Source: a virus
Direction: 5' to 3' (one strand)
IMG/VR virus record: IMGVR_UViG_3300017971_005826
Span: 1 to 28,117 of that record
DNA length: 28,117 nucleotides
Within the stretch, counting starts at the first letter, position 1, and each line of letters starts with the position of its first letter. The notes beneath the pieces are model-generated. The model was not told where the DNA came from, made no database searches, and saw only the letters and a program-made list of their open reading frames with translations. Positions 4,327 through 18,407 of this stretch are shown here, piece after piece. Made by a program: the position numbers and the translations under genes.

Positions 4327-4890
4327 ATGCAGACGTTCACCGATACCGAAAACCGGACCTGGACGCTGAACCTCACCATCGGCGCGGTCAAGCGGGTCCG
4401 CGACGAGCTGAAGGTCAACCTGATGGACCCGCTCGGCGGTGCGAGGCCGGGCAACAGCAACGGACGCCGCCGGCGCCCGCCGCTTCTGACCCGATTGCAG
4501 CTCGACCCCATCCTGCTGGTCGCCGTGATCTTCGTGCTCGTCAAGCCGGAGGCCGACCGGCAGGGCGTCACCGACGAGCAGTTTGCCGAGGCCCTGGGCG
4601 GCGATGCCGCCTACGACGCCTTTGTCGCGTTCATGGCGGAGTGGCGCGGTTTTTTCCAAAGGCTCCGCCGCGAGACCGAGGCCAAGGCGATCGACGCGAA
4701 CCTGGCGATGGTCGCGGCGGAGGACAAACGGACCGCGGCGTTGGTGCCGAGGGCGACCGAGGCGGCCCAAAAGGCGGCCGAGCGCCGGAGGCAAGAGGCG
4801 ATCGAAAAGATCGAGGCCCTTGGCGACTCCGTGACTGCTACGAGCTCGCCGGAATCGTCGGGCTCGGGCCCCGCGACATCGACGCCCTGA
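4327..4890 (+). CDS. tail assembly chaperone, short form (gpG-like)
   Basis: A 187-aa zero-frame product. The N-terminal half (TFTDTENRTWTLNLTIGAVK; RLQLDPILLVAVIFVLVKPE; VTDEQFAEALGGDAAYDAFV) matches the pattern of planctomycete-phage proteins that precede the tape measure. After about residue 100 it becomes a charged helix (KAIDANLAMVAAEDK, AAQKAAERRRQEAIEKIEAL), and the last 20 residues are low-complexity Ser/Pro/Gly. The low-complexity tail is probably what is read when ribosomes do not change frame. By analogy with lambda G it binds the tape measure in assembly and is absent from virions. Confidence 0.65.
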   Translation: MQTFTDTENRTWTLNLTIGAVKRVRDELKVNLMDPLGGARPGNSNGRRRRPPLLTRLQLDPILLVAVIFVLVKPEADRQGVTDEQFAEALGGDAAYDAFVAFMAEWRGFFQRLRRETEAKAIDANLAMVAAEDKRTAALVPRATEAAQKAAERRRQEAIEKIEALGDSVTATSSPESSGSGPATSTP

Positions 4891-5141
4891 CGCTCCGCGA
4901 GCTGGTGTGGATGGCCGACGGGGCGAGGAGGGAGCGATGGAACCACACGGCGGCCCTGCGGGCGGACATCCACAACATCCTGCGCGAAAAGCCGCTCAGC
5001 CCGGCCGAGTTCCATCCGTTCATGAAGCGGAGGCCCCCTGCGAAGGTGCGCCCTCGCCCGGGCGCCGTGGAACGACTCGCTCGCGACCTCTGCGGCGACG
5101 AGGCCTGCGACGCCAAGTGGGGCACGGACAAACCCGCGTGA
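4327..5141 (+). CDS. tail assembly chaperone, -1 frameshift product (gpGT-like)
   Basis: The -1 frame overlapping the end of the short form is open to 5141 and carries sequence that looks truly coding: CYELAGIVGLGPRDIDALTL, ELVWMADGARRERWNHTAAL, LSPAEFHPF. It has no plausible own start codon before this conserved stretch. A -1 shift is exactly the direction needed to join it to the upstream gene, giving about 271 residues. Paired G and G-T chaperones just before the tape measure are a conserved feature of long-tailed phages. Two candidate slip sites are listed separately; the exact shift point is inferred. Confidence 0.65.
4650..4656 (+). promoter_or_regulatory. canonical -1 slippery heptamer T TTT TTC
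   Basis: In the zero frame of the chaperone the codons are GGT TTT TTC CAA, so T TTT TTC fits the X XXY YYZ rule exactly and would slip to TTT TTT. It lies 240 bases upstream of the zero-frame stop. Against it, the -1 frame just downstream is low-complexity Arg/Gly-rich sequence, which looks like an untranslated shadow. Confidence 0.45.
4803..4809 (+). promoter_or_regulatory. alternative -1 slip site C GAA AAG
   Basis: Zero-frame codons GAA AAG contain the A AAG tetramer that promotes -1 slippage in bacteria. The site lies directly before the switch from sensible zero-frame sequence (EAIEKIEALGDS) to sensible -1 frame sequence (LRDCYELAG), which fits the conserved protein pattern better than the site at 4650. 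The P-site re-pairing is poor, so efficiency is uncertain. Confidence 0.4.
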
Positions 5142-5428: not shown

Positions 5429-8014
5429 ATGACCAACGCGGGTGCAATCCGAGCCGGGCGCGCGTTCGTCGAGCTGTTCGGCGACGACTCGAAGCTCGTG
5501 CGCGTGCTCAAGTCTTCGGAGGCACAGCTCCGCGCGTGGGGCAACCGCGTCAGCGGATTCGGCCGGCAGATTGCGATGGCCTCGGCCGCGGCCCTGGCGC
5601 CGCTGGTGATGGCCACGCGGAGCTTCGCCAGCCTCGATGACGAGATGCGGATCGTCAAGGCGGTCACCGGCGCGACGGCCGACGAGTTCGAGCGACTCTA
5701 CGAGATCGCCAAACGGCTGGGCAGGACAACCTCCTTCAAGGCCGTCGAGGTAGCCGGCGGCCAGCGGGAGCTTGGCCGGGCGGGCTTCAAGCCCGCGGAG
5801 ATCGAGGCCTCGATCGAGGGCGTGTTGAACCTGGCCCGGGCCACCGGGACCGAGCTGCCCGAGGCCGCGGGCATCGCCGCCGGCACGCTCCGGGCCTTCT
5901 CGCTCGAAGCGGACCAGATGAACCGCGTGGTCGACGTCCTGGTCGCCACGGCCAACAACTCGGCGCAGACGCTCACCGACCTCGGCGAGAGCATGAAGTA
6001 CGCCGCGCCGATCGCCGACGAGTACGGGGTATCGCTGGAGGACACGGCCAAGGCCCTGGGCGTGCTGGCCAACATGCAGATCAAGGGCTCGATGGCCGGC
6101 ACATCGCTGCGGCAGATCATGCTGAGGCTTTCGGACCCGGCAATCCGCAAGCGGCTTCAGGACATGGACGTCGACCTCAGTAACATCGGCGACACGATGA
6201 TCGGCATCGGCCGGGCCATGGCCAAGATGAGCCGACCGGAGCGGCTGGCCTTCGCTAAGGAGTTCTTCGACCAGCGGGCCGCCGCGGCGGTGGTGAAGCT
6301 GGCCAAGAGCGACTTCCCGGCCCTCTCCCAAGCCATCGACAACGCCGGCGGCACGGCCGCCAGGACCGCGGAGGAGATGGACGCCGGGATCGGCGGCGTG
6401 CTGCGCCGGCTTTGGTCGGCGGCTGAAGGGGCCACGAACGCCCTGGCCGAAGCCCTGGAACCGTCCATCACCGAGCTGGGCGAGACCGTCACCGAGATCC
6501 TGGGGCCGGTGACGACGTGGATCGAGAACAACCGGGAGCTGGTCACGCTCCTTGCCAAGGTGACGGCCGGGACACTGGCCTTGGGCATGGCGCTGCTCGC
6601 CTTGGGCGGGGCGGCCAAGGTGGTTGCAGCGCTGAATGTGGCGCTGGCCTTCCTGGCAGCCAACCCGCTGGTCGCGGCGGCGACCGCCGGAGCGGCCCTG
6701 GCGCTGGCCATCAGCCGCATGAGCGCGGCCTGCCAGGCGGCGACCAAGGCGATCATCGGCATGACGGCCGCCTGGGCGATCTTCACGGCCAATCCGGTCC
6801 TGCTGGTCTTCGCCGCCACCGCCGCCGCGGCGATCTACCTCAGCGACGCCCTGTCGGACACGGAGGAGAAGTTCGCCGATCTGTCGCACGCTGCCGAACG
6901 CGCCCGCAGTGCCGGCGACAAGCAGCGCGAGGCCGCCCTGAGGCAGGTACGGGAGCTGGAAAAGCTGGCCGCCAAGGAGCGGCTCAACAACGACCAGATG
7001 AAGCGGGCCGAGACGCTCATCGAGTCGCTCGAAAGCCGCTACGGGGACCTGAGCGTGTCGGTCGACCGGGCCACCGGCAGAATCGTCGGGCTGACCAAGG
7101 CCCACGCGGATCTGAACGAGCAGATGCGCCAGACGGCCATCCAGGACATCGAGCGCGAGATCAAGCAGCGGACCGGAAACCTGGAGCGGTTGGCCCGCGA
7201 GCAGCAGGAGGAGCATTCCGACGTGGCCATCGTGATGATGCGCCAGCAGGCCGACCAGGAGCTCGCCGCCATTCGCCAGGCCATGAGTCGCCTGCGGATG
7301 CTCAGGCAGGAGGGCGCGACGCCCGAGGCCCTGACAGGAAAGCCCGGCCTACCGGGCGGCGTGCCCGGCCCGGCCAGCGGAGAGGAAGACGAACGGGTCT
7401 ACGAGGAGACGGTCGCCCACGAGATGGAGCGGATCCGGCTGGGGATGATCGAGAACCGGCACCGGCGGGAACTGGCCCTGATCGAGGAAAAGTACCGGCA
7501 CGAAATGGCCCTGGCGATTCTGGCGGGCAAGGAGAAGGAGAAGGTGGACGACATGGAGCGCAAGCGGGACTTGGAGCTGGCCGCCGCCCGCAAGCGACAC
7601 GCCAAGGAGAACGCTGAGGAGTCGAAACAGCAGGCCGACGACGTCGCCGACCGCGAGAAGGCGCTGCGGTGGGAGATCCAGCGGCTGGAGGTCGAGAAGA
7701 CGATGACCGGCCGGGCGAGGGAGAAGGCCCTCTTGAAGATCGAAGAGGAGCGGGCCCTGGAGGAGGCCCGGGCCGCCGGCATCGATCCGGGCCTGGTCCG
7801 CCGGAAGTACGCCCTGATGGGCCGCGACATCATGGGCCAGACCAGGGAGCGGTTCTCGGTGACCGGAACCTTCAACGCCCTGGTCGCCGGCCGGATGGCC
7901 GCGGGCGGCCCCGCCGAGCGCACGGCCAAAGCGACCGAGGAGACGGCCGGCCACCTGAAATACATCCGCCGCAAGTTCGAGTTCACCGGCCCGAAGACCA
8001 GCAAGTTCACCTAA
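5429..8014 (+). CDS. tail tape measure protein (TP901 type)
   Basis: This protein sets tail length and is packed in the tube lumen. Of its 861 residues, about 45-330 match the TP901-type core: SFASLDDEMRIVKAVTGATA, then repeated helices on AANNSAQTLTDLGESMKYAA and IKGSMAGTSLRQIMLRLSD. Hydrophobic helices lie near 375-470 (TLALGMALLALGGAAKVVAAL; WAIFTANPVLLVFAATAAAA) and long charged coiled coil at about 480-560 and 650-790. The C-terminal AERTAKATEETAGHLKYIRR pattern is common in planctomycete-phage tape measures. It is the longest gene of the window, as expected. The ATG lacks a clear Shine-Dalgarno because a repeat occupies the upstream bases. Confidence 0.88.
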   Translation: MTNAGAIRAGRAFVELFGDDSKLVRVLKSSEAQLRAWGNRVSGFGRQIAMASAAALAPLVMATRSFASLDDEMRIVKAVTGATADEFERLYEIAKRLGRTTSFKAVEVAGGQRELGRAGFKPAEIEASIEGVLNLARATGTELPEAAGIAAGTLRAFSLEADQMNRVVDVLVATANNSAQTLTDLGESMKYAAPIADEYGVSLEDTAKALGVLANMQIKGSMAGTSLRQIMLRLSDPAIRKRLQDMDVDLSNIGDTMIGIGRAMAKMSRPERLAFAKEFFDQRAAAAVVKLAKSDFPALSQAIDNAGGTAARTAEEMDAGIGGVLRRLWSAAEGATNALAEALEPSITELGETVTEILGPVTTWIENNRELVTLLAKVTAGTLALGMALLALGGAAKVVAALNVALAFLAANPLVAAATAGAALALAISRMSAACQAATKAIIGMTAAWAIFTANPVLLVFAATAAAAIYLSDALSDTEEKFADLSHAAERARSAGDKQREAALRQVRELEKLAAKERLNNDQMKRAETLIESLESRYGDLSVSVDRATGRIVGLTKAHADLNEQMRQTAIQDIEREIKQRTGNLERLAREQQEEHSDVAIVMMRQQADQELAAIRQAMSRLRMLRQEGATPEALTGKPGLPGGVPGPASGEEDERVYEETVAHEMERIRLGMIENRHRRELALIEEKYRHEMALAILAGKEKEKVDDMERKRDLELAAARKRHAKENAEESKQQADDVADREKALRWEIQRLEVEKTMTGRAREKALLKIEEERALEEARAAGIDPGLVRRKYALMGRDIMGQTRERFSVTGTFNALVAGRMAAGGPAERTAKATEETAGHLKYIRRKFEFTGPKTSKFT

Positions 8015-9326: not shown

Positions 9327-10763
9327 ATGGGCGACCCGTTCAAGAAAGTGCAGCCCGGCGACGACCAGGAGATCCCGGCCGAGACGTTCAACACGTTCAT
9401 CGACGCCGCGTTGGACTTCAAGGCCCGCACCCGCGGCCTGGGGCAGAAGGCCACGCCCCAGGTCCCGCAGCGGACGATCATCCCGGTCAAGAACATGACC
9501 GGCGCCCAGCGCAACCGCTTCGACGTGGCGGCGGTCGACCAGCCGATCTTCGACCTCGGCTCCGCCGCCGGCAAGCAGCGCCCGGCCGCTGTCGGCGTGA
9601 AACCGGACCCGGCCAGCCAGCTCGGCCGGATCGCCGTCTTCCTGGAGCCGGCCGACGTGGGCGCCATCGCCCGCTGCTGCGTCTCCGGCGTCACGGTGGC
9701 CCGGGTCACCTTCCACGAGAAGTGGCACCGCTGGGCCGACTTCAAGAAGGACGAGTGCCAATCCCTCGAAAGCCGCGCCGAACCCGGCGGCGCCTACATC
9801 CTCTGGTCACCCGGCAGCACGGGCACCCAAATGTGCCTGGTCCGCCTCAGCAACCCGCCGCCAGTCCACTTCCCCGCCAAGATCACGTCGGCCACGTCCA
9901 TCCCCGGATCGCAGGGTCGATACAAGTACACCTTCGCCGAGGTGGAGAAGAAGGCCAAGGAACACGACGGCTGGCAGGTCAAGGACGACGGCCGGAGCGG
10001 AACCGCCTTCAACCTGGTGGAGACGGTAAACGATCCCCAGTGCGTCCCGGCCAAGGTAGGCGAGACGGTCCGGATGGACGAAGTCCACTTCACCGGCGAG
10101 AGCGGCGAAGAAGAGACCGAATACTGGTTCCAGTACGAGGAGTACGACCAGGACGCGCCGAGCGATGGTTCATCTGCCTCGCCCGGCTCGGATGGCGGGC
10201 CGCCGCCGCCCGGCGGCTACGTGGACATCGTCACCTGCGACATCCACAACCGTTGCGGGCAATACTTCGTCTTCAAGCAGAAGCGGATCAGCTACGACGC
10301 CCGCGGAAACATCACCTCCATCACGGACATTTCGCCGTCCGTCGTGCCGATCTACGAGTGCCAGAGCAGCGGCGGCCCGCCGCCACCACCCGACTACAGC
10401 AGCGGCGATTCCAGCGATTTCATCGGGCAATCCTCTGGCGGGCCGCCCTCGGAGGTCTGGTACATCTGGCACCGCGGCGCCGCCGGCGAGGGCGAGTGGT
10501 GGATTTCCAAGACGATCGGCGACGAAAGCGACGGGTACTGTTGGCGGAAGTTCGACGGCGGCGACACGACTCCGCCGGTCGAGGGCCAGTACGGGACCGG
10601 CCCGTTCACGTCCGGCGTGGCCACGGTCAGTGACGCCGGCGGCATGGACCTGAACGTCTCCGGTACGCTCAATCCCGACGCGACCGGATTCTACAGCTTC
10701 CAGGGGTTTGACCACCTGTACAACGGTCTCGGCACCTGGAAACGCACCGGAGGATTGCCCTGA
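9327..10763 (+). CDS. putative tail fibre / receptor-binding tail protein
   Basis: A 478-aa modular protein. The N-terminal about 280 residues begin with a helix (DQEIPAETFNTFIDAALDFK) typical of phage proteins that attach to the baseplate and continue with beta-rich sequence. Two Ser/Asp/Gly/Pro linkers (around residues 285-300, SDGGPPPPGGY; and 350-378, SSGGPPPPPDYSSGD) separate it from small domains. The end, residues 420-478, is a compact Gly/Phe/Tyr-rich module (GFYSFQGFDHLYNGLGTWKR). The ATG at 9327 is preferred; an upstream in-frame TTG is weak. The stop TGA overlaps the glycosyltransferase start by one base. Host binding is inferred from modularity and place. Confidence 0.6.
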   Translation: MGDPFKKVQPGDDQEIPAETFNTFIDAALDFKARTRGLGQKATPQVPQRTIIPVKNMTGAQRNRFDVAAVDQPIFDLGSAAGKQRPAAVGVKPDPASQLGRIAVFLEPADVGAIARCCVSGVTVARVTFHEKWHRWADFKKDECQSLESRAEPGGAYILWSPGSTGTQMCLVRLSNPPPVHFPAKITSATSIPGSQGRYKYTFAEVEKKAKEHDGWQVKDDGRSGTAFNLVETVNDPQCVPAKVGETVRMDEVHFTGESGEEETEYWFQYEEYDQDAPSDGSSASPGSDGGPPPPGGYVDIVTCDIHNRCGQYFVFKQKRISYDARGNITSITDISPSVVPIYECQSSGGPPPPPDYSSGDSSDFIGQSSGGPPSEVWYIWHRGAAGEGEWWISKTIGDESDGYCWRKFDGGDTTPPVEGQYGTGPFTSGVATVSDAGGMDLNVSGTLNPDATGFYSFQGFDHLYNGLGTWKRTGGLP

Positions 10764-13309
10764 TGCCTGCCCTGCGCTTCGCCTCGCACCGCCAAGTCGC
10801 CGAGCAGGCCGCCCTGCGCCCGCCGCGGTACCTGCTCGACCTGGAGCGCATCATCGTCCGCCGCGACGAGCACGGCATCTGGTACGATGCTGCGCGGCCC
10901 GCGTACCTTGAGTTGGTGCGCAAGTACCGGCCCGTCCCGCGGCCCTCACCCCCTCACCCCCTCGCCCCCTCACCCCGTCAAGACATCTGGCAGGCGTGGC
11001 GCGCAGAGGGCGGCCGCTGGGTCGCCGATGGCTGGCTCCGCCCCGGCTTCTACGCCGATCCGCCGTGCTTCGACCCGTTGCCCGGCGAAGTGCTCCAGTG
11101 TCCGGCCTTTCCCGCGGCAGACTTCCGGGCGCCGCCCGGCGATGGCCCGATCGACGTGGTCATCCCGCTGTCCGCCGGCAGCAAGCACGGAGACGCTGAG
11201 CTGCGCTACTGCCTCCGTTCGATCGCCAAGCACTTCGAAGGCCTCGGCCGGGTGTGGATTGTCGGGCACCGCCCGACGTGGCTCCGTGGGATCCAGCATA
11301 TCCCGGCTGGAGATTCCCACATCAGCAAAGACGTGAACATCATCCGCAAGATCGAGGCCGCCTGCCGGGCCGGCGTTTCCAGACAGTTCGTCCGCATCTC
11401 GGACGACCAGATCCTCTTGCGGCCGCTGGCGTTCTCGCAGCTCGGGCCGTATACCTGGGGCGATCTCCGCGGCCGGCCGATCGGCAATCCTCAGGAAGAG
11501 TCCCGGCGGTGGTACCGGCGGCTGCGGCGCACGTCGGGCTGGCTGGCCGAGCGCGGTCTGCCCACGTTCCAGTGCGACACCCACGTCCCGATCCCGATGG
11601 ACCGCGACCGCTTCCTGGAGCTCGCTGACCGGACCCGCGACGCATGGGAGTTGCGCGACGGGATGTGCGTGAACACCTGGTACTGCAACCAGGCCGGGCG
11701 CAAGCCGCAGCCGATGCAGAACCGCAAAGCGACGATCGAGGCGGCGCTGCCGGCCGAGGAAATCCGCCGCCGCGTGGCCGGCCGCTGGTTCCTGGGCTAC
11801 AACGACGCGGGCTTCACGCCGGACTTGCGGGCCCTCTTGGACGAGCTATTTCCTGAGAAATGCCGGTTCGAGGAGGAAGAGGAGAACACTAATCCCCACT
11901 CATCAGCGCTAATCAGTTGGGATCAGCGTTCCAGCTCTCTTTCCGTGCGTCCTGCCGGCCCGACGCTCTCGATCATCATCCCGACCATCGGCCGCCCGGC
12001 CCTGACGCGCACGCTGGAGAGCATCCGCGGGCAGGATATGGTCGACGGTGACGAGGTGCTCGTGGTGCAGGACGGGCCGAGCGACCTGGCGACGTGGGCC
12101 GTCGTGAAGGCGTCTGGGTTGCCCGGACGGTATCTGGCGACGGGGAAGCGGGCCAACGATGTTGGGGCCGCGCCGCGAAACTTCGGCATAGCCCACGCCG
12201 ACGGCGAATACCTGGCCTTCATGGACGACGACGACGTGTATCGCCCCGGGGCCTTCGACGCGATTCGGGCGGCGGCGGTTCGACACCCGAGGCGGCCGCT
12301 GATGTTCCGCATGGAACGGCCCGGGTGGGCGCGTACGATATGGCAAGACCAGGCCGTCCGCTATGGCAATGTCAGCACGCAACTCTTCGTAACTCCCAAC
12401 CATCCCGGTCGCTTGGGGACGTGGGGACCGTACCACACGGGAGACCTGGCTTTCATTCTGTCCACGCTGCGCTGCTGGCCGCCAGGCTCTCTCCTTTGGG
12501 AGCCGGCAACGATCGCCGAGGTGCCCCAAACGCAAAGCACGCTGCCGGTCAACCACCCGATGCTCCGAAACCTCATCTACCACGTCTATCCGGTGGCCAC
12601 AAACGACGAGTGGAAGCTAAACGTAGAGAGGCTCTGCCGTTCCTGGACGCTCTTCAATGGCCGCAAGATCGTGGGCGTCGTCTGCGACAACGACACCGTT
12701 CCCGTCGAGGCAGTTCAGGCGGCGTTCCCCGACGATGCGATTGAATGGCTCGTCGCGCCCAACGACCCTGTACGGGGAGAAACAGTCACGTTCTTGCCGG
12801 CCGCCAAGCGGCTGGAGTCCCTCAATTCCTACGAGGCCACTTTCTACGCCCACGCCAAGGGCACCCATCGCGCAGGCAACCCAAAGAACGAAACGCCCGC
12901 CGAGAGAATCCGGCAATGGCGGGATTTCTGCTACCGAGGCTGCCTGGAAAGGCTGCCGCCGGACTTCGACGACATCATCCATGTGAAGCCCTGCGCGGGG
13001 TGCCTCAAGCGGCAGAAGGGTTTGCCGCAGGAGAAAGGACGGCCGGAATCGTATTGGCACTACTCCGGCAATTTCTGGTGGATCAACCACGCACACTTTT
13101 TTAGCCTACCCGATGCACTCCATCTGGGGCCTTCGCGATGGGCACTGGAACGCCACCTTGGGGAATTGTTCCCGGAAGCGGACGCCGTCTGTTTGGCAGG
13201 CGACGACTTCCGCGGCTGGCCGTACCGCATGACGGAAGGCGAGTGGTCGGCCATGGAAAGGCAAGCCTTCGGGTCGGCGCAACTACAGGAGACCACGCAT
13301 GGGTCTTGA
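10763..13309 (+). CDS. three-module glycosyltransferase (Stealth-like + GT2 + third GT-like module)
   Basis: An 848-aa protein with three parts. Residues 130-365 resemble Stealth/capsular-phosphotransferase-like proteins: DVVIPLSAGSKHGDAELRYC, VWIVGHRP, KDVNIIRKI and an acidic RISDDQILL motif. Residues 400-600 are a GT-A family 2 glycosyltransferase: LSIIIPTIGRPALTRTLESI, RNFGIAHADGEYLAFMDDDD with the DxD metal site at 488-491. Residues 600-825 carry FYAHAKGTHRAGN and YWHYSGNFWWINHAHFF, a module seen in other sugar transferases to my memory. Linkers at 61-72 and 374-390 are encoded by dispersed DNA repeats. It overlaps the tail gene and the methyltransferase. Likely role: modifying host surface glycan or virion protein; substrates unknown. 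Confidence 0.75.
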   Translation: MPALRFASHRQVAEQAALRPPRYLLDLERIIVRRDEHGIWYDAARPAYLELVRKYRPVPRPSPPHPLAPSPRQDIWQAWRAEGGRWVADGWLRPGFYADPPCFDPLPGEVLQCPAFPAADFRAPPGDGPIDVVIPLSAGSKHGDAELRYCLRSIAKHFEGLGRVWIVGHRPTWLRGIQHIPAGDSHISKDVNIIRKIEAACRAGVSRQFVRISDDQILLRPLAFSQLGPYTWGDLRGRPIGNPQEESRRWYRRLRRTSGWLAERGLPTFQCDTHVPIPMDRDRFLELADRTRDAWELRDGMCVNTWYCNQAGRKPQPMQNRKATIEAALPAEEIRRRVAGRWFLGYNDAGFTPDLRALLDELFPEKCRFEEEEENTNPHSSALISWDQRSSSLSVRPAGPTLSIIIPTIGRPALTRTLESIRGQDMVDGDEVLVVQDGPSDLATWAVVKASGLPGRYLATGKRANDVGAAPRNFGIAHADGEYLAFMDDDDVYRPGAFDAIRAAAVRHPRRPLMFRMERPGWARTIWQDQAVRYGNVSTQLFVTPNHPGRLGTWGPYHTGDLAFILSTLRCWPPGSLLWEPATIAEVPQTQSTLPVNHPMLRNLIYHVYPVATNDEWKLNVERLCRSWTLFNGRKIVGVVCDNDTVPVEAVQAAFPDDAIEWLVAPNDPVRGETVTFLPAAKRLESLNSYEATFYAHAKGTHRAGNPKNETPAERIRQWRDFCYRGCLERLPPDFDDIIHVKPCAGCLKRQKGLPQEKGRPESYWHYSGNFWWINHAHFFSLPDALHLGPSRWALERHLGELFPEADAVCLAGDDFRGWPYRMTEGEWSAMERQAFGSAQLQETTHGS
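10943..10977. repeat. in-frame CCCTCACCC repeat encoding a Pro-rich linker
   Basis: Four units of CCCTCACC/CCCTCGCC read through in frame and encode PSPPHPLAPSPR in the glycosyltransferase. The same word occurs at the end of the gene before the tape measure. Confidence 0.65.
11884..11931. repeat. dispersed palindromic repeat, copy 1 (within glycosyltransferase)
   Basis: The element starts GAACACTAATC and ends GATCAGCGTTC, with an interior of CACTCATCAGCGCTAATCAG words. It shares this design with copies at 18781 and 21797. It sits in frame at the junction of the first and second transferase modules and encodes residues about 374-390. Confidence 0.8.
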
Positions 13310-13844
13310 AAGTTGGGTGTTTCCGGCGGAGGTGCCTGGATTCTTGAGCGCACACGAAGCGCGATGCCTCGCGGAAATGGCTGCCGGCCGATCAGTCCTC
13401 GAGATTGGCTCCTACTGCGGTCGCTCGACGATCTCGATGGGGCAAACGGCCGACTCCGTCGTCTCCGTGGATTGGCACCGCCCGGCCTTCGCCTTCCCGA
13501 AGGGTGGCACGCTCGAACGACTCCAGGCGGGGCTGCACTCTTTCCGCGTCTCGGAACGGGTTGTCGTGCTTGTGGGCCCGGCCCAAGACGTGCTGCCTTG
13601 GCTTGCATCGGGCCAGTTCGGAATGATCTTTCACGACGCGGGCCACAGCGAGGCGGAAGTTGTCGCCGACATTAGCGCCAGCCGCCGGCTGATTCGGCCT
13701 GGGGGACTGTGGGCCATTCACGACTACCTGCACCCAGAGTACGGCGCGGGAGTCAGAGCCGCGGTCGCTTCGCTTTTTCCCGGCCTGGACGTCCGGCAAG
13801 AGGGAAGCCTGGCGATCGTGAAAGAGCCGCCAACGGGCGGCTAG
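13299..13844 (+). CDS. class I SAM-dependent methyltransferase
   Basis: A 181-aa Rossmann-fold methyltransferase of the Methyltransf_24 kind. Motif I is VLEIGSYCGRS (residues 33-43), the second strand acid is in DSVVSVDWH (52-60), and MIFHDAGHS (109-117) and GGLWAIHDY (135-143) match the later strands and the metal/substrate loop of sugar- or O-methyltransferases. Its start lies inside the last codons of the glycosyltransferase, so both are made from one transcript. The pairing suggests methylation of the glycan built or altered by that enzyme. Its stop overlaps by three bases the stop of the opposite-strand gene. Confidence 0.8.
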   Translation: MGLESWVFPAEVPGFLSAHEARCLAEMAAGRSVLEIGSYCGRSTISMGQTADSVVSVDWHRPAFAFPKGGTLERLQAGLHSFRVSERVVVLVGPAQDVLPWLASGQFGMIFHDAGHSEAEVVADISASRRLIRPGGLWAIHDYLHPEYGAGVRAAVASLFPGLDVRQEGSLAIVKEPPTGG

Positions 13845-15609: not shown

Positions 15610-15651
15610 CTACGGAACCGAAGGTTACTGGTTCGAGTCCAGTGGGGTGTG
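15610..15651 (+). other. displaced 3' half of a tRNA-Arg-like gene (candidate attP/att core)
   Basis: From the anticodon loop onward this reads like a tRNA: loop CTACGGA (anticodon ACG), ACCGA 3' stem, AGGTT variable region, ACTGG-TTCGAGT-CCAGT T arm and GGGGTGT acceptor strand. The 5' part is missing: the bases before the loop (AAGGA) do not pair with ACCGA, and no matching 5' acceptor strand is upstream. This is the form left when a tyrosine integrase uses a tRNA gene and crosses over near the anticodon loop. An integrase gene begins 1.6 kb downstream. Host tRNA identity is inferred. Confidence 0.65.
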
Positions 15652-15665
15652 CTTCTGGGGGGGCT

Positions 15666-15725: not shown

Positions 15726-15866
15726 ATGGGCAGGGATGCACCGCAGAGACCGCAGAAGCCGCCGCCCCCACCGGACACCGGCCGGCGCGGGACGGCCCCC
15801 AAGCCGGAGCCGCGGAGCGGTTCAGGCGGTCAGGGCGGCCGGAAGCAGCCAGGCGGCGGCAAGTGA
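15726..15866 (+). CDS. 46-aa Pro/Gly-rich basic peptide
   Basis: Begins eight bases after an excellent AGGGAGGA site. The product is fully disordered in character: a run of prolines (QKPPPPPDTGRRG) and a basic Gly-rich end (GGQGGRKQPGGGK). It lies between the candidate att site and the integrase region, and its last 45 bases overlap the end of the opposite-strand membrane-protein gene. Near its start, CCGCAGAGACCGCAG is a heptad-like dispersed repeat word, so it may have arisen from repeat DNA. Function unknown. Confidence 0.45.
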   Translation: MGRDAPQRPQKPPPPPDTGRRGTAPKPEPRSGSGGQGGRKQPGGGK

Positions 15867-16415
15867 CAAGAGGAGGCAGGCGAAGCCGAGCCAACCGGCC
15901 TTCCAGTGGTTGGTGACCTTGAGGGCCTCGACCGCGCCGTGGTAACTCGCCGCGAGCCAGGCCTCAGGGTTCTCGGCGGTGTCGATGCCCTCCAAGACGT
16001 CGCGGATGCGCGGGGGCATCGGGCAATCCGTGGGTCGGCGCGACCACACGATCGCCAGCATCGAAGCGACCAGGGAGGCCAGCGAGAGACGGATCGGCCA
16101 GCCCGGCAGGACGTGGAATGCGCCGACGGCAGCCAGCTCGACCGCGGCCAGCAAACCTGCCGTGCGAAGGATCCGGTCCGCGGATTGATTGAGCGACTCG
16201 AAACACTGGGAGACCTCGGCGTAGCGTGCCCGGGCATGTTCGAGCACGACCGGCCCCGGAACTTGCTGAGTCGACTGATAGTCAGCGACCCACGCGGCCT
16301 CGGCCGCGCAGGCCGGATCCGCACTTGGATCGGGAGGGCGGAAATAGAACCCCAAGGCCCTGATTCTTTCCAGGCCCTTGGCCCACAAGGCTTCGATGAA
16401 CGCAAAGGGATTCAT
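15822..16415 (-). CDS. three-span membrane protein
   Basis: A 197-aa protein with a helical N-terminal region (residues 1-80), two adjacent membrane spans (about 84-102 and 106-125), a cytoplasmic-type loop with Pro-rich PTDCPMPPRIRDVLEGID, and a third span (174-194) close to the C-terminus. The start ATG is preceded by GGGGATG. It stands alone on the minus strand beside the integrase control region, where superinfection-exclusion or other lysogenic genes are often found. No family recognised; that role is conjecture. Confidence 0.6.
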   Translation of the reverse strand: MNPFAFIEALWAKGLERIRALGFYFRPPDPSADPACAAEAAWVADYQSTQQVPGPVVLEHARARYAEVSQCFESLNQSADRILRTAGLLAAVELAAVGAFHVLPGWPIRLSLASLVASMLAIVWSRRPTDCPMPPRIRDVLEGIDTAENPEAWLAASYHGAVEALKVTNHWKAGWLGFACLLLSLAAAWLLPAALTA

Positions 16416-16527
16416 GGTACATCCCCAGCATCGAGATGACGGGACGAACAACCGTTCACCATAGCCGGGAGAAGGCCAGCCGACAATCCGAACACTGAGC
16501 CACGCGGGGGCCGGGGACCTCTTCAAC

Positions 16528-16540
16528 CGCCAAGTTGTTG
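16528..16540 (+). repeat. 13-mer CGCCAAGTTGTTG, site 1
   Basis: First of four copies around the integrase promoter: 16528-16540, 16652-16664 (both direct), 16969-16981 (inverted) and 17084-17096 (direct, one mismatch). Candidate integrase arm-type or regulator binding site. Confidence 0.55.
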
Positions 16541-16651
16541 ACGTCGGTATCAACCCTGCCCCCGTGCCGGGGCCCTCCGGGCGGCCGGAGGGCCCTGGCC
16601 TGAAACACACGAGGAACGCGAAGCCACGCGGGGGCCGGGGACTTCTTCAAC

Positions 16652-16664
16652 CGCCAAGTTGTTG
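16652..16664 (+). repeat. 13-mer CGCCAAGTTGTTG, site 2
   Basis: Identical to site 1, 124 bases downstream, within the second tandem element. Confidence 0.55.
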
Positions 16665-16684
16665 ACGTTACTCTTCAACCCTGC

Positions 16685-16732
16685 CCCCGCCGCAAGGCCC
16701 TTCGGGCAACCGAAGGGCCTTGCCCCTTTCTT
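16685..16732 (+). terminator. intrinsic terminator at end of tandem element
   Basis: CAAGGCCCTTCGG-GCAA-CCGAAGGGCCTTG, a 13-bp stem with a tetraloop, followed by CCCCTTTCTTGT. It would end any transcript crossing the tandem elements before the integrase promoter. Confidence 0.65.
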
Positions 16733-16747
16733 GTATCGGCGCGCCCG

Positions 16748-16765
16748 GTGACAACACGTTGTCAC
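16748..16765. promoter_or_regulatory. operator-like palindrome
   Basis: GTGACAAC-AC-GTTGTCAC is a perfect dyad with 8-bp arms and a 2-bp centre, the form expected for a dimeric repressor. It lies about 130 bases before the -35 box of the integrase-region promoter. No second copy was noticed nearby. Confidence 0.5.
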
Positions 16766-16893
16766 ACCTATGGGGCTTTTCCCGAAGAAAGAATCCGGGG
16801 CGACCGACGCCATAAAGTCCGACGTTTCAAAGGCTTTCGCGCCGATCCGCCAGATCCGCGGGCCTCTTTTCCCGAAATTCGGCCCGGGTCCGC

Positions 16894-16923
16894 TTGACAA
16901 AGCGAGGCCGTTTGATCTCTAAT
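16894..16923 (+). promoter_or_regulatory. sigma70-type promoter
   Basis: TTGACA (perfect -35) and TCTAAT (5 of 6 at -10) with 18-base spacing, in otherwise GC-rich DNA. Transcription would start near 16930 and run through the hairpin at 16943-16963 toward the integrase. Confidence 0.6.
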
Positions 16924-16942
16924 CGCGGGCGAAGAGTAACGT

Positions 16943-16963
16943 GGGCCCGCGCTGTGCGGGCCC
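16943..16963 (+). promoter_or_regulatory. leader hairpin downstream of promoter
   Basis: GGGCCCGC-GCTGT-GCGGGCCC forms a perfect 8-bp GC stem beginning about 13 bases after the predicted start of transcription. No T-tract follows. It is placed between GAAGAGTAACGT and an inverted 13-mer, words that occur in the same order on the opposite strand of tandem copy B. Confidence 0.55.
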
Positions 16964-16968
16964 GAAAC

Positions 16969-16981
16969 CAACAACTTGGCG
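16969..16981 (-). repeat. 13-mer CGCCAAGTTGTTG, site 3 (inverted)
   Basis: Exact match to sites 1 and 2 on the minus strand, directly after the leader hairpin. Confidence 0.55.
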
Positions 16982-17083
16982 AGTCACCGACTCACCCCTG
17001 GCCTCTTAGGCAACTTCCTTCTTGTTTCTCGCCTGGGTCGAGGCCTAACGTGGTCGGCGTTCTCGCCGGACTGCGGCCGTTTC

Positions 17084-17096
17084 CGCCAAGTTGTCG
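17084..17096 (+). repeat. 13-mer, site 4 (CGCCAAGTTGTCG)
   Basis: 12 of 13 bases match the other copies. It is the site nearest the integrase start. Confidence 0.45.
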
Positions 17097-17270
17097 GTCG
17101 GCCGCGACCACAGGCTTCCTGGCGCCGTTAAAAAGCGCGTGCGGCGAACGTGACGCTGTGCGTTTGCGTTCGCCGTGCGCGCGGCGCACGGAGGAGATCG
17201 GGCAGGGCAACGGGCGACGGACGTCCCCAACCAGGCGGCGCCGAAGCCCCAGCCCCAAGGAGTGCTGAAC

Positions 17271-18407
17271 ATGTCCAGCAGCTTCCCGATCCCGTACGAT
17301 GCCGGCCAGCCCGGCGGCTCACCACGAGAAACGCCGCCCCCGATCGGCATCCACCGGCCCGACGAGACGGGCCCGCCGCGCGGCCTTTCACCGCGCATGA
17401 CCCTCTGCGAGTTCTTCGAGGCCTTCGTCCTGCGCCGGATGCAGAACAAGGACCTCGACGCGTCGACGATCGGCGACTACGGCCAGTCGCTGAAGTACTG
17501 GAAGCGGTTCACCGGGGACCCGCCCCTGGAGGCCGTCGACCAGTCGGTCTGCGACGAGTACCTGGCCCGCGTGAAGCGTCTGCCCGGCCGCAGGGGAAAC
17601 CAAGTCCTCTCGCCGATGACGGTCCGCAAGCACTGCCGCAACGTGCAGCGGTGCCTGGAGCTGGCCGGACCGAAGTACGGGCCGCGGCAGATCGTGGCCG
17701 CCAAGCGCGGCCTCTTCGGCCTCGATGAGGATGGCGATCCGCGAGACCCGCCGCGCCTGGAGCCACCGGACCGCGTGGAAGACGAGGCCGAGAACGTCTT
17801 CACGCTTCACGAGATCGCCTCCTGGCTCGACGTGTGCGACCAGGCGATCGCACCGCGCATCCCCGGCCTGACGCCGGGCTCGTGGTGGAGATCGCTGGTG
17901 ATCTACTGCTACAACGTCGGCGTGCGGATCGGCACAGCCCTGCGCGTCACCTATGCCATGCACCGCGCCGACGACGACGGGCGCACGTGGGTCCACGTTC
18001 CGCCGAAGAAGAAGGCCATCAAGGGCCGGCGCGGCGAGCGGTTCTACGTGAACCGGAGCGCCTGGGAGGCAATCGAGGCCATCCGCACGGACCGCGACCT
18101 GGTTTTCCTGTGGCCCCATCACCGTCGGCACCTCGACACGGTCCGGGTGAAGCTCCTGACGATGGCCGGCATCCCGCTGGACCGACAGTTCGGCTTCCAC
18201 GGCGTGCGCAAGGCGTTCTGCACCGAGATGGCCGAGGACAACCCGATGGTCGCGCAGAAGCAGGCGGGCCACGCGGGCATGGCCATCACCCGCGACGTTT
18301 ACTGCAACCGGCGCATGGTCGCCGGCTCGATGGAAAAGCTCCGGCAGCCGAAGCGGCGAAACCGCGTCGGAAAAGATGACCCGAGGCAGAAACGCCTCTT
18401 TGACTAG
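17271..18407 (+). CDS. int: tyrosine recombinase / phage integrase
   Basis: Catalyses site-specific integration and excision of the element. In the 378-aa product, residues 43-135 are the helical core-binding (SAM-like) domain (TLCEFFEAFVLRRMQNKDLD; STIGDYGQSLKYWKRF). Residues 175-345 are the catalytic domain, with Arg219 in NVGVRIGTAL, a likely Lys in PPKKKAIKG, His310 and Arg313 in FHGVRKAF, His334 in GHAG and the nucleophile Tyr344 in RDVYCNR. All expected residues are present, so it should be active. The ATG at 17271 follows AAGGAGTG; an in-frame ATG at 17175 is less likely. The Pro-rich first 40 residues may bind arm sites. Two terminators follow. Confidence 0.9.
   Translation: MSSSFPIPYDAGQPGGSPRETPPPIGIHRPDETGPPRGLSPRMTLCEFFEAFVLRRMQNKDLDASTIGDYGQSLKYWKRFTGDPPLEAVDQSVCDEYLARVKRLPGRRGNQVLSPMTVRKHCRNVQRCLELAGPKYGPRQIVAAKRGLFGLDEDGDPRDPPRLEPPDRVEDEAENVFTLHEIASWLDVCDQAIAPRIPGLTPGSWWRSLVIYCYNVGVRIGTALRVTYAMHRADDDGRTWVHVPPKKKAIKGRRGERFYVNRSAWEAIEAIRTDRDLVFLWPHHRRHLDTVRVKLLTMAGIPLDRQFGFHGVRKAFCTEMAEDNPMVAQKQAGHAGMAITRDVYCNRRMVAGSMEKLRQPKRRNRVGKDDPRQKRLFD

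Follow-up and report, generated by a model that had tools for sequence, protein, structure and literature searches.

The tandem structured element at 16498-16732 is best explained as the gene for an antisense RNA by which a temperate planctomycete phage controls its own integrase, a reading to which we assign a probability of about 0.7. As judged from its complementarity to the integrase leader and from the recurrence of this paired design, with other sequences, in related prophages, the element probably serves as an RNA switch for the integrase. An integrase is needed at infection and has to be off in the lysogen, and the best-studied integrase controls are proteins or cis-acting RNA. If the proposal is true, recurrent antisense RNAs against integrase leaders, with fast-changing but matched recognition sequences, would constitute a new layer of lysogeny control, and this control would be prophage-specific, as two prophages in one genome (L109 and L110) suggest. 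It would also open a first route into the study of phage gene control in Planctomycetes, and the cross-locus comparison of RNA-leader complementarity is a way to find such systems without remaining sequence homology.

Genomic context of the element

The window, namely the whole stretch of DNA that was analysed, is a 28-kb IMG/VR virus record (28,117 nucleotides). It matches L005 identically over 10,121 bases, and L005 extends 9 kb further left. The element sits in an 855-bp gap, flanked by a divergent gene on one side and a tyrosine integrase on the other. The surrounding features are as follows.

15610-15654, + strand: probable attP core, the 3' portion, starting at the anticodon loop, of a tRNA-Arg(ACG) gene, 45 bases of which are identical to the intact tRNA-Arg(acg) of prophage L055 (374-448)
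15822-16415, - strand: divergent gene of unassigned function, an open reading frame with its ATG at 16415, between attP and the RNA elements
16747-16766, no strand: operator-like palindrome GGTGACAAC-AC-GTTGTCACA
17257-17262, + strand: integrase ribosome-binding site AAGGAG
17271-18404, + strand: tyrosine integrase, the proposed regulated gene (PF00589, E=6e-8; PHROG integrase, E=1e-19)

The product of 15822-16415 has no match in Pfam or PHROGs, and no complete tRNA gene was found in the window. In most close relative loci, a tRNA gene lies upstream of the integrase in the same orientation; together with the 45-base tRNA-Arg fragment shared with L055, this indicates that the window and its relatives are tRNA-integrating phages. 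The palindrome recurs near the integrase of L062 as GGTGACAAC-CT-GTTGTCACC, and imperfectly near that of L055, and is probably the operator of a shared regulator. In addition, the major capsid protein (57-980) belongs to the GP7 family, being 32% identical to its counterpart in Akkermansia phage Chantilly and 27% to the one in Bordetella phage BPP-1. Beyond the tail genes, the window encodes an unusual phage cargo, an 848-residue protein with a family 2 glycosyltransferase domain (10763-13309) and a methyltransferase (13299-13844).

Architecture of the tandem element

Repeat and fold analysis delineated two structured copies.

16498-16602, + strand: structured RNA copy 1, a 5' stem with a large loop followed by a hairpin (16566-16599), T-rich tail absent
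16622-16732, + strand: structured RNA copy 2
16692-16723, + strand: terminator-like hairpin closing copy 2, with 14 perfect pairs, followed by CCCTTTCTTG

The initial annotation had described two 124-nt tandem copies with nearly identical starts, which was confirmed by repeat and alignment analysis: the copies are spaced 124 nt start-to-start and share 46 of their first 47 bases. The hairpin of copy 1 comprises 15 pairs, one of them G-U. Comparison of the two stems also bore out the paired changes noted earlier, in that three pairs are altered on both sides (C-G to G-C, G-C to A-T and C-G to T-A), a single change is one-sided (G-T to A-T), and zero pairs are broken. Both copies fold better than 200 of 200 dinucleotide shuffles, with z of -4.5 for copy 1 and -6.8 for copy 2 (-4.2 and -6.4, respectively, with alternative boundaries). 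An additional 5' stem in each copy, formed by GCGGGGGC with GCCCCCGC or GCCCCCGT, closes a large loop, which is the conserved part. The T-rich tail (CCCTTTCTTG) follows the hairpin of copy 2 only; the hairpin of copy 1 is followed by CTGAAACACA, and just about 20 nt separate it from copy 2. Because of the missing tail and this short spacer, the two copies are more likely to be carried on one transcript than to be produced as two separately terminated RNAs.

Might the element simply consist of ordinary duplicated intrinsic terminators, which separate the divergent gene from the integrase and have no function in trans? The hairpin of copy 2 is terminator-like, pairing-preserving stem changes are expected of any terminator, and paired changes in a G+C-rich hairpin of this type are insufficient evidence on their own. 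However, copy 1 has no T-rich tail, and conservation is highest in the 5' stem and loop rather than in the terminator. Moreover, the loop specifically matches the integrase leader, and such a match recurs at other loci, which makes a terminator-only role very improbable. Selection for RNA structure, as suggested from the stems at the outset, is supported, with the pairing to the leader carrying the case.

Covariance searches gave 0 Rfam matches at the gathering score in the window, consistent with the earlier statement that the RNA family was not recognised. The best sub-threshold match of copy 2 is the BjrC68 sRNA (RF02353), at 24.4 bits (E=0.0007) against a gathering score of 39, and probably reflects a mere likeness of G+C-rich hairpins. 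Two further readings of the element, as an integron attC site and as the tandem-repeat RNA antitoxin of a type III toxin-antitoxin system, were dropped on inspection.

Split complementarity to the integrase leader and its recurrence

The segments of the two RNA copies and of the leader are listed below.

16528-16540, + strand: A' segment of copy 1 (CGCCAAGTTGTTG), complementary to leader 16969-16981; copy 1 has no B' match
16652-16664, + strand: A' segment of copy 2, 13/13 complementary to leader segment A
16665-16676, + strand: B' segment of copy 2, directly 3' of A', 12/12 complementary to leader segment B
16894-16923, + strand: promoter-like site TTGACA-18-TCTAAT of the integrase transcript, with a similar site 42-52 nt before hairpin 1 in most relatives
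16931-16942, + strand: leader segment B (GAAGAGTAACGT), complementary to B'
16943-16963, + strand: leader hairpin 1 (by folding), between B and A, beginning ~20 nt past the promoter-like site
16969-16981, + strand: leader segment A (CAACAACTTGGCG), complementary to A'
17075-17103, + strand: leader hairpin 2 (by repeat finder and folding), the loop of which carries A'' (17084-17098, CGCCAAGTTGTCGGT)

The promoter-like site, which had been passed over by a promoter scan demanding A at position 2 of the -10 box, places the element upstream of the integrase promoter, as first proposed, and the integrase transcript likely starts just 3' of it. The repeat finder revealed that the copy 2 loop (16652-16676) is an unbroken 25-nt complement, without mismatch, to 16931-16942 plus 16969-16981. 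Thus A' and B' are adjacent in the RNA, whereas their targets A and B are separated in the leader by the hairpin at 16943-16963. When the loop was compared with the entire window, the top two + strand matches (scores 26 and 24) were leader segments A and B. Copy 1 retains the first half of this match only. Its B' half (16541-16551, ACGTCGGTATC) has diverged, and no second target for it was found in the window; likewise, L057 has a second module with a similar first half and an altered second half. Within the leader itself, A'' is able to pair with 16967-16981, so that A'' and the RNA are predicted to compete for segment A.

The split-match score of the window is 50.0, compared to 28.0 +/- 2.1 (maximum 33.7) in 100 dinucleotide shuffles. 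We consider specific pairing between the RNA and the leader very likely, given this score and the recurrence of the same arrangement in related loci.

Exact-pattern searches of IMG/VR and GTDB genome contigs found no recognisable homologue of the element, nor did two longer patterns give any match. One IMG/VR match (L004) was a 20-base chance match within a coding region, and 18 GTDB matches to a 17-mer showed no similarity beyond it; both were discarded. A covariance model built from the two copies would have failed, given that these exact-pattern searches yielded no recognisable sequence homologue, and the homologous systems were reached via the integrase instead. As a single query, the window integrase retrieved no relative from IMG/VR, GTDB contigs, or phage or plasmid records; no relatives were found for the L055 integrase among phages and plasmids, or for the L056 integrase among phages. 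An integrase search of 398 Planctomycetia genomes identified relatives at 52% identity and lower, and an alignment-based search of one order, Pirellulales, yielded further ones; this order contains G548, from the same family as G002 (the Adhaeretor mobilis genome). Family-wide searches around G397, G381, G548 and G263, plus a phylum sample, added nothing further. In IMG/VR, two viral relatives have upstream sequence that could be used, L104, which is identical in sequence to prophage L057, and L111. Integrase relatives were found in Pirellulales prophages and two IMG/VR viruses, and the phage or planctomycete origin suggested by the initial annotation is supported.

The related systems have architecture and complementarity in common, not sequence. 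Split pairing is present at four loci with unrelated sequence, namely L056, L057, L106 and, more weakly, L055. A spliced-target scan picked up L056 and L057, and in a scan across all leader hairpins the split match ranked first in the window, L055, L056 and L106, and second in L057; the L057 and L106 cases came from the scans, not by eye. Scores of 46.7 (L056), 45.4 (L057) and 40.1 (L106) each exceed 100 of 100 own shuffles, and the real score was reached by two of 100 shuffles in both L055 and L062, 19 of 100 in L111 and 71 of 100 in L060. Individually, L055 and L062 are marginal.

In all of these comparisons, the extent of each leader was chosen by eye, on the basis of the first hairpin past the promoter and in part once the first matches were known. 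In a 10 x 10 cross-locus test, the own upstream region ranked first for 8 of 10 leaders, compared to an expectation of one. The diagonal sum was unmatched in 100,000 permutations, with off-diagonal scores of 28.7 +/- 2.8; L060 and L111 failed this matching test. Opposite-strand scores reached 25.7-31.0 only. Scores for the wrong segment order ran up to 40.5, and exceeded the right-order score in L060 and L062. In L062, the values of 40.5 for the wrong and 35.5 for the right order fit its one-segment match: this locus has half the design, with two RNA copies, as also seen in L057, and a 14-nt match to the post-hairpin segment only. Compared with shuffles, folding was better for each of the ten candidate RNAs tested (z -3.2 to -8.8). 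Moreover, A:A'' pairing occurs in several leaders, above the cross-locus expectation (permutation P = 0.002) and in a recurring TTT-n-CCGCC / CGG context. In the related loci, only tRNAs matched Rfam at the gathering score.

L109 and L110, which were examined after the integrase tree had grouped them with the window and L055 at moderate support, are paralogues from two prophages in one genome. Their RNAs are homologous by nhmmer, the variable loops differ, and each loop fits its own leader, from which the leader hairpin is absent. In both loci, RNA and integrase are separated by a small reading frame of helix-turn-helix, excisionase-like type (L109 ~4775-4990; L110, reversed, ~6590-6810). In the integrase tree, the system-bearing loci do not make one supported clade. 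Although common among these integrases, the system does not accompany all of them, because no such RNA was found in L060 and the match in L111, 8+6 bases only, is within noise. The reading frame of a helix-turn-helix regulator ends just before the integrase promoter and leader of L060, and it is possible that protein control takes the place of RNA control there.

Alternatively, the repeated CGCCAAGTTGT might represent DNA arm-type sites for the integrase or an excisionase, with no RNA involved. The motif occurs four times between attP and int (at 16528, at 16652, inverted at 16981, and at 17084), and at other loci the corresponding stretch contains a repeated motif particular to that locus; each integrase could have a specificity of its own. 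However, the match between B and B' is separate from this motif, and in several unrelated sequences A'B' is contiguous at one place and split by a hairpin at the other. The A' of L057 (ACTCACCGCC) has just five bases in common with its A'' (CCGCCAATTTC), yet each is complementary to A; RNA pairing accounts for this, a repeated DNA site does not. In addition, arm-type sites in the window would lie 0.9-1.5 kb from the att core and within strongly folded segments. We regard such DNA sites as a quite unlikely explanation, and keep to the antisense RNA reading in what follows.

Proposed control of the integrase and comparison with known antisense RNAs

In the proposed antisense mechanism, the RNA would present the recognition sequence A'B' in its 5' stem loop, with copy 2 as the better match and copy 1 as half a match. 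A'B' would pair with the integrase mRNA over its first ~55 nt, flanking leader hairpin 1 in the order B-hairpin-A, and strip segment A from A'', upon which the leader would refold. As long as the prophage stays resident, integrase synthesis would then be lowered, with premature termination of transcription or decay of the RNA as the most likely route. That the control is negative appears reasonably likely; we infer repression from what lysogeny requires and by analogy with C4 RNA and P4 CI RNA, the closest known systems. For an action on transcription or RNA stability, instead of directly on the ribosome site, the chances are about even, and this is likelier than a direct ribosome block, because the start codon lies nearly 300 nt past the paired leader segment and its predicted accessibility is unchanged on pairing. 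Folding revealed no clear terminator in the leader of the window.

Pairing could also activate the integrase, for example by breaking an A:A'' fold that otherwise halts the leader transcript. The A:A'' pairing is present in the leader and would be abolished by the RNA, the sequence leaves the sign of regulation unfixed, and a case of activation has been described in the Gifsy-1 prophage, where the short IsrK RNA activates its own long transcript (PMC4825925). However, the phage RNAs closest in layout, C4 and CI, repress, and no clear terminator depends on A:A'', hence activation appears doubtful compared to the repression proposed above.

The C4 RNA of phages P1 and P7 pairs with target mRNAs via its a' and b' loops (PMC5320573). 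The element resembles this antisense RNA in being a phage-borne structured RNA with two recognition segments against two segments of a same-phage message, and in that the variable segments give specificity while the scaffold is kept; the C4-type feature, A' and B' complementary to A and B of one leader of the same phage, is present in the window. By contrast, A' and B' lie side by side in one loop, whereas C4 uses two loops, and in most loci here a hairpin divides the target halves. The targets differ as well, for C4 acts on the antirepressor icd/ant operon, whereas both of the top-scoring + strand matches in the window fall within the integrase leader. The C4 covariance model found no match at the gathering score in the window and none at E<=1 in 16400-17300; it likewise found none in the related loci, with none at E<=1 in L111 4300-4960. 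The best reading is that the element would act like C4 RNA or P4 CI RNA and is not a detectable member of the C4 family.

The P4 CI RNA pairs with leader sequences (the seqA/seqC targets) and causes termination (PMC4825925). Similar to it, the element would be a small phage RNA directed against an untranslated leader, with an effect on transcription that is here proposed. Compared to P4 CI RNA, which regulates replication genes and arises by processing of the very primary transcript that it acts on, the RNA described here lies upstream of the integrase promoter-like site and its target is the integrase. An open-literature search, with most subscription journals outside its coverage, found no antisense RNA against a phage integrase leader. 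Among mobile elements, RNA-OUT of IS10 and art200 of IS200 are antisense RNAs that restrain a DNA-mobility enzyme via the 5' part of its mRNA. They are transcribed from the strand opposite their target, whereas the RNA here comes from a separate site on the same strand.

A clear sigma70-like promoter is missing ahead of most of the RNAs. A number of the RNA genes immediately follow the attachment-site tRNA, share its orientation and have no obvious promoter to themselves, which raises the idea of an integration sensor: the RNA would be produced solely from the integrated prophage and would then turn the integrase off. Integration would in that case couple the RNA gene to the tRNA promoter. The RNA of the window lies ~840 bp from attP with an opposite-strand gene in between, which speaks against this form of control there, and we consider it unlikely. 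Downstream of the attachment-site tRNA and near the RNA genes, L056, L057 and L106 also have hairpins that resemble the anticodon arm of that tRNA (for example GTACCGGACTATACATCCGGTG in L057).
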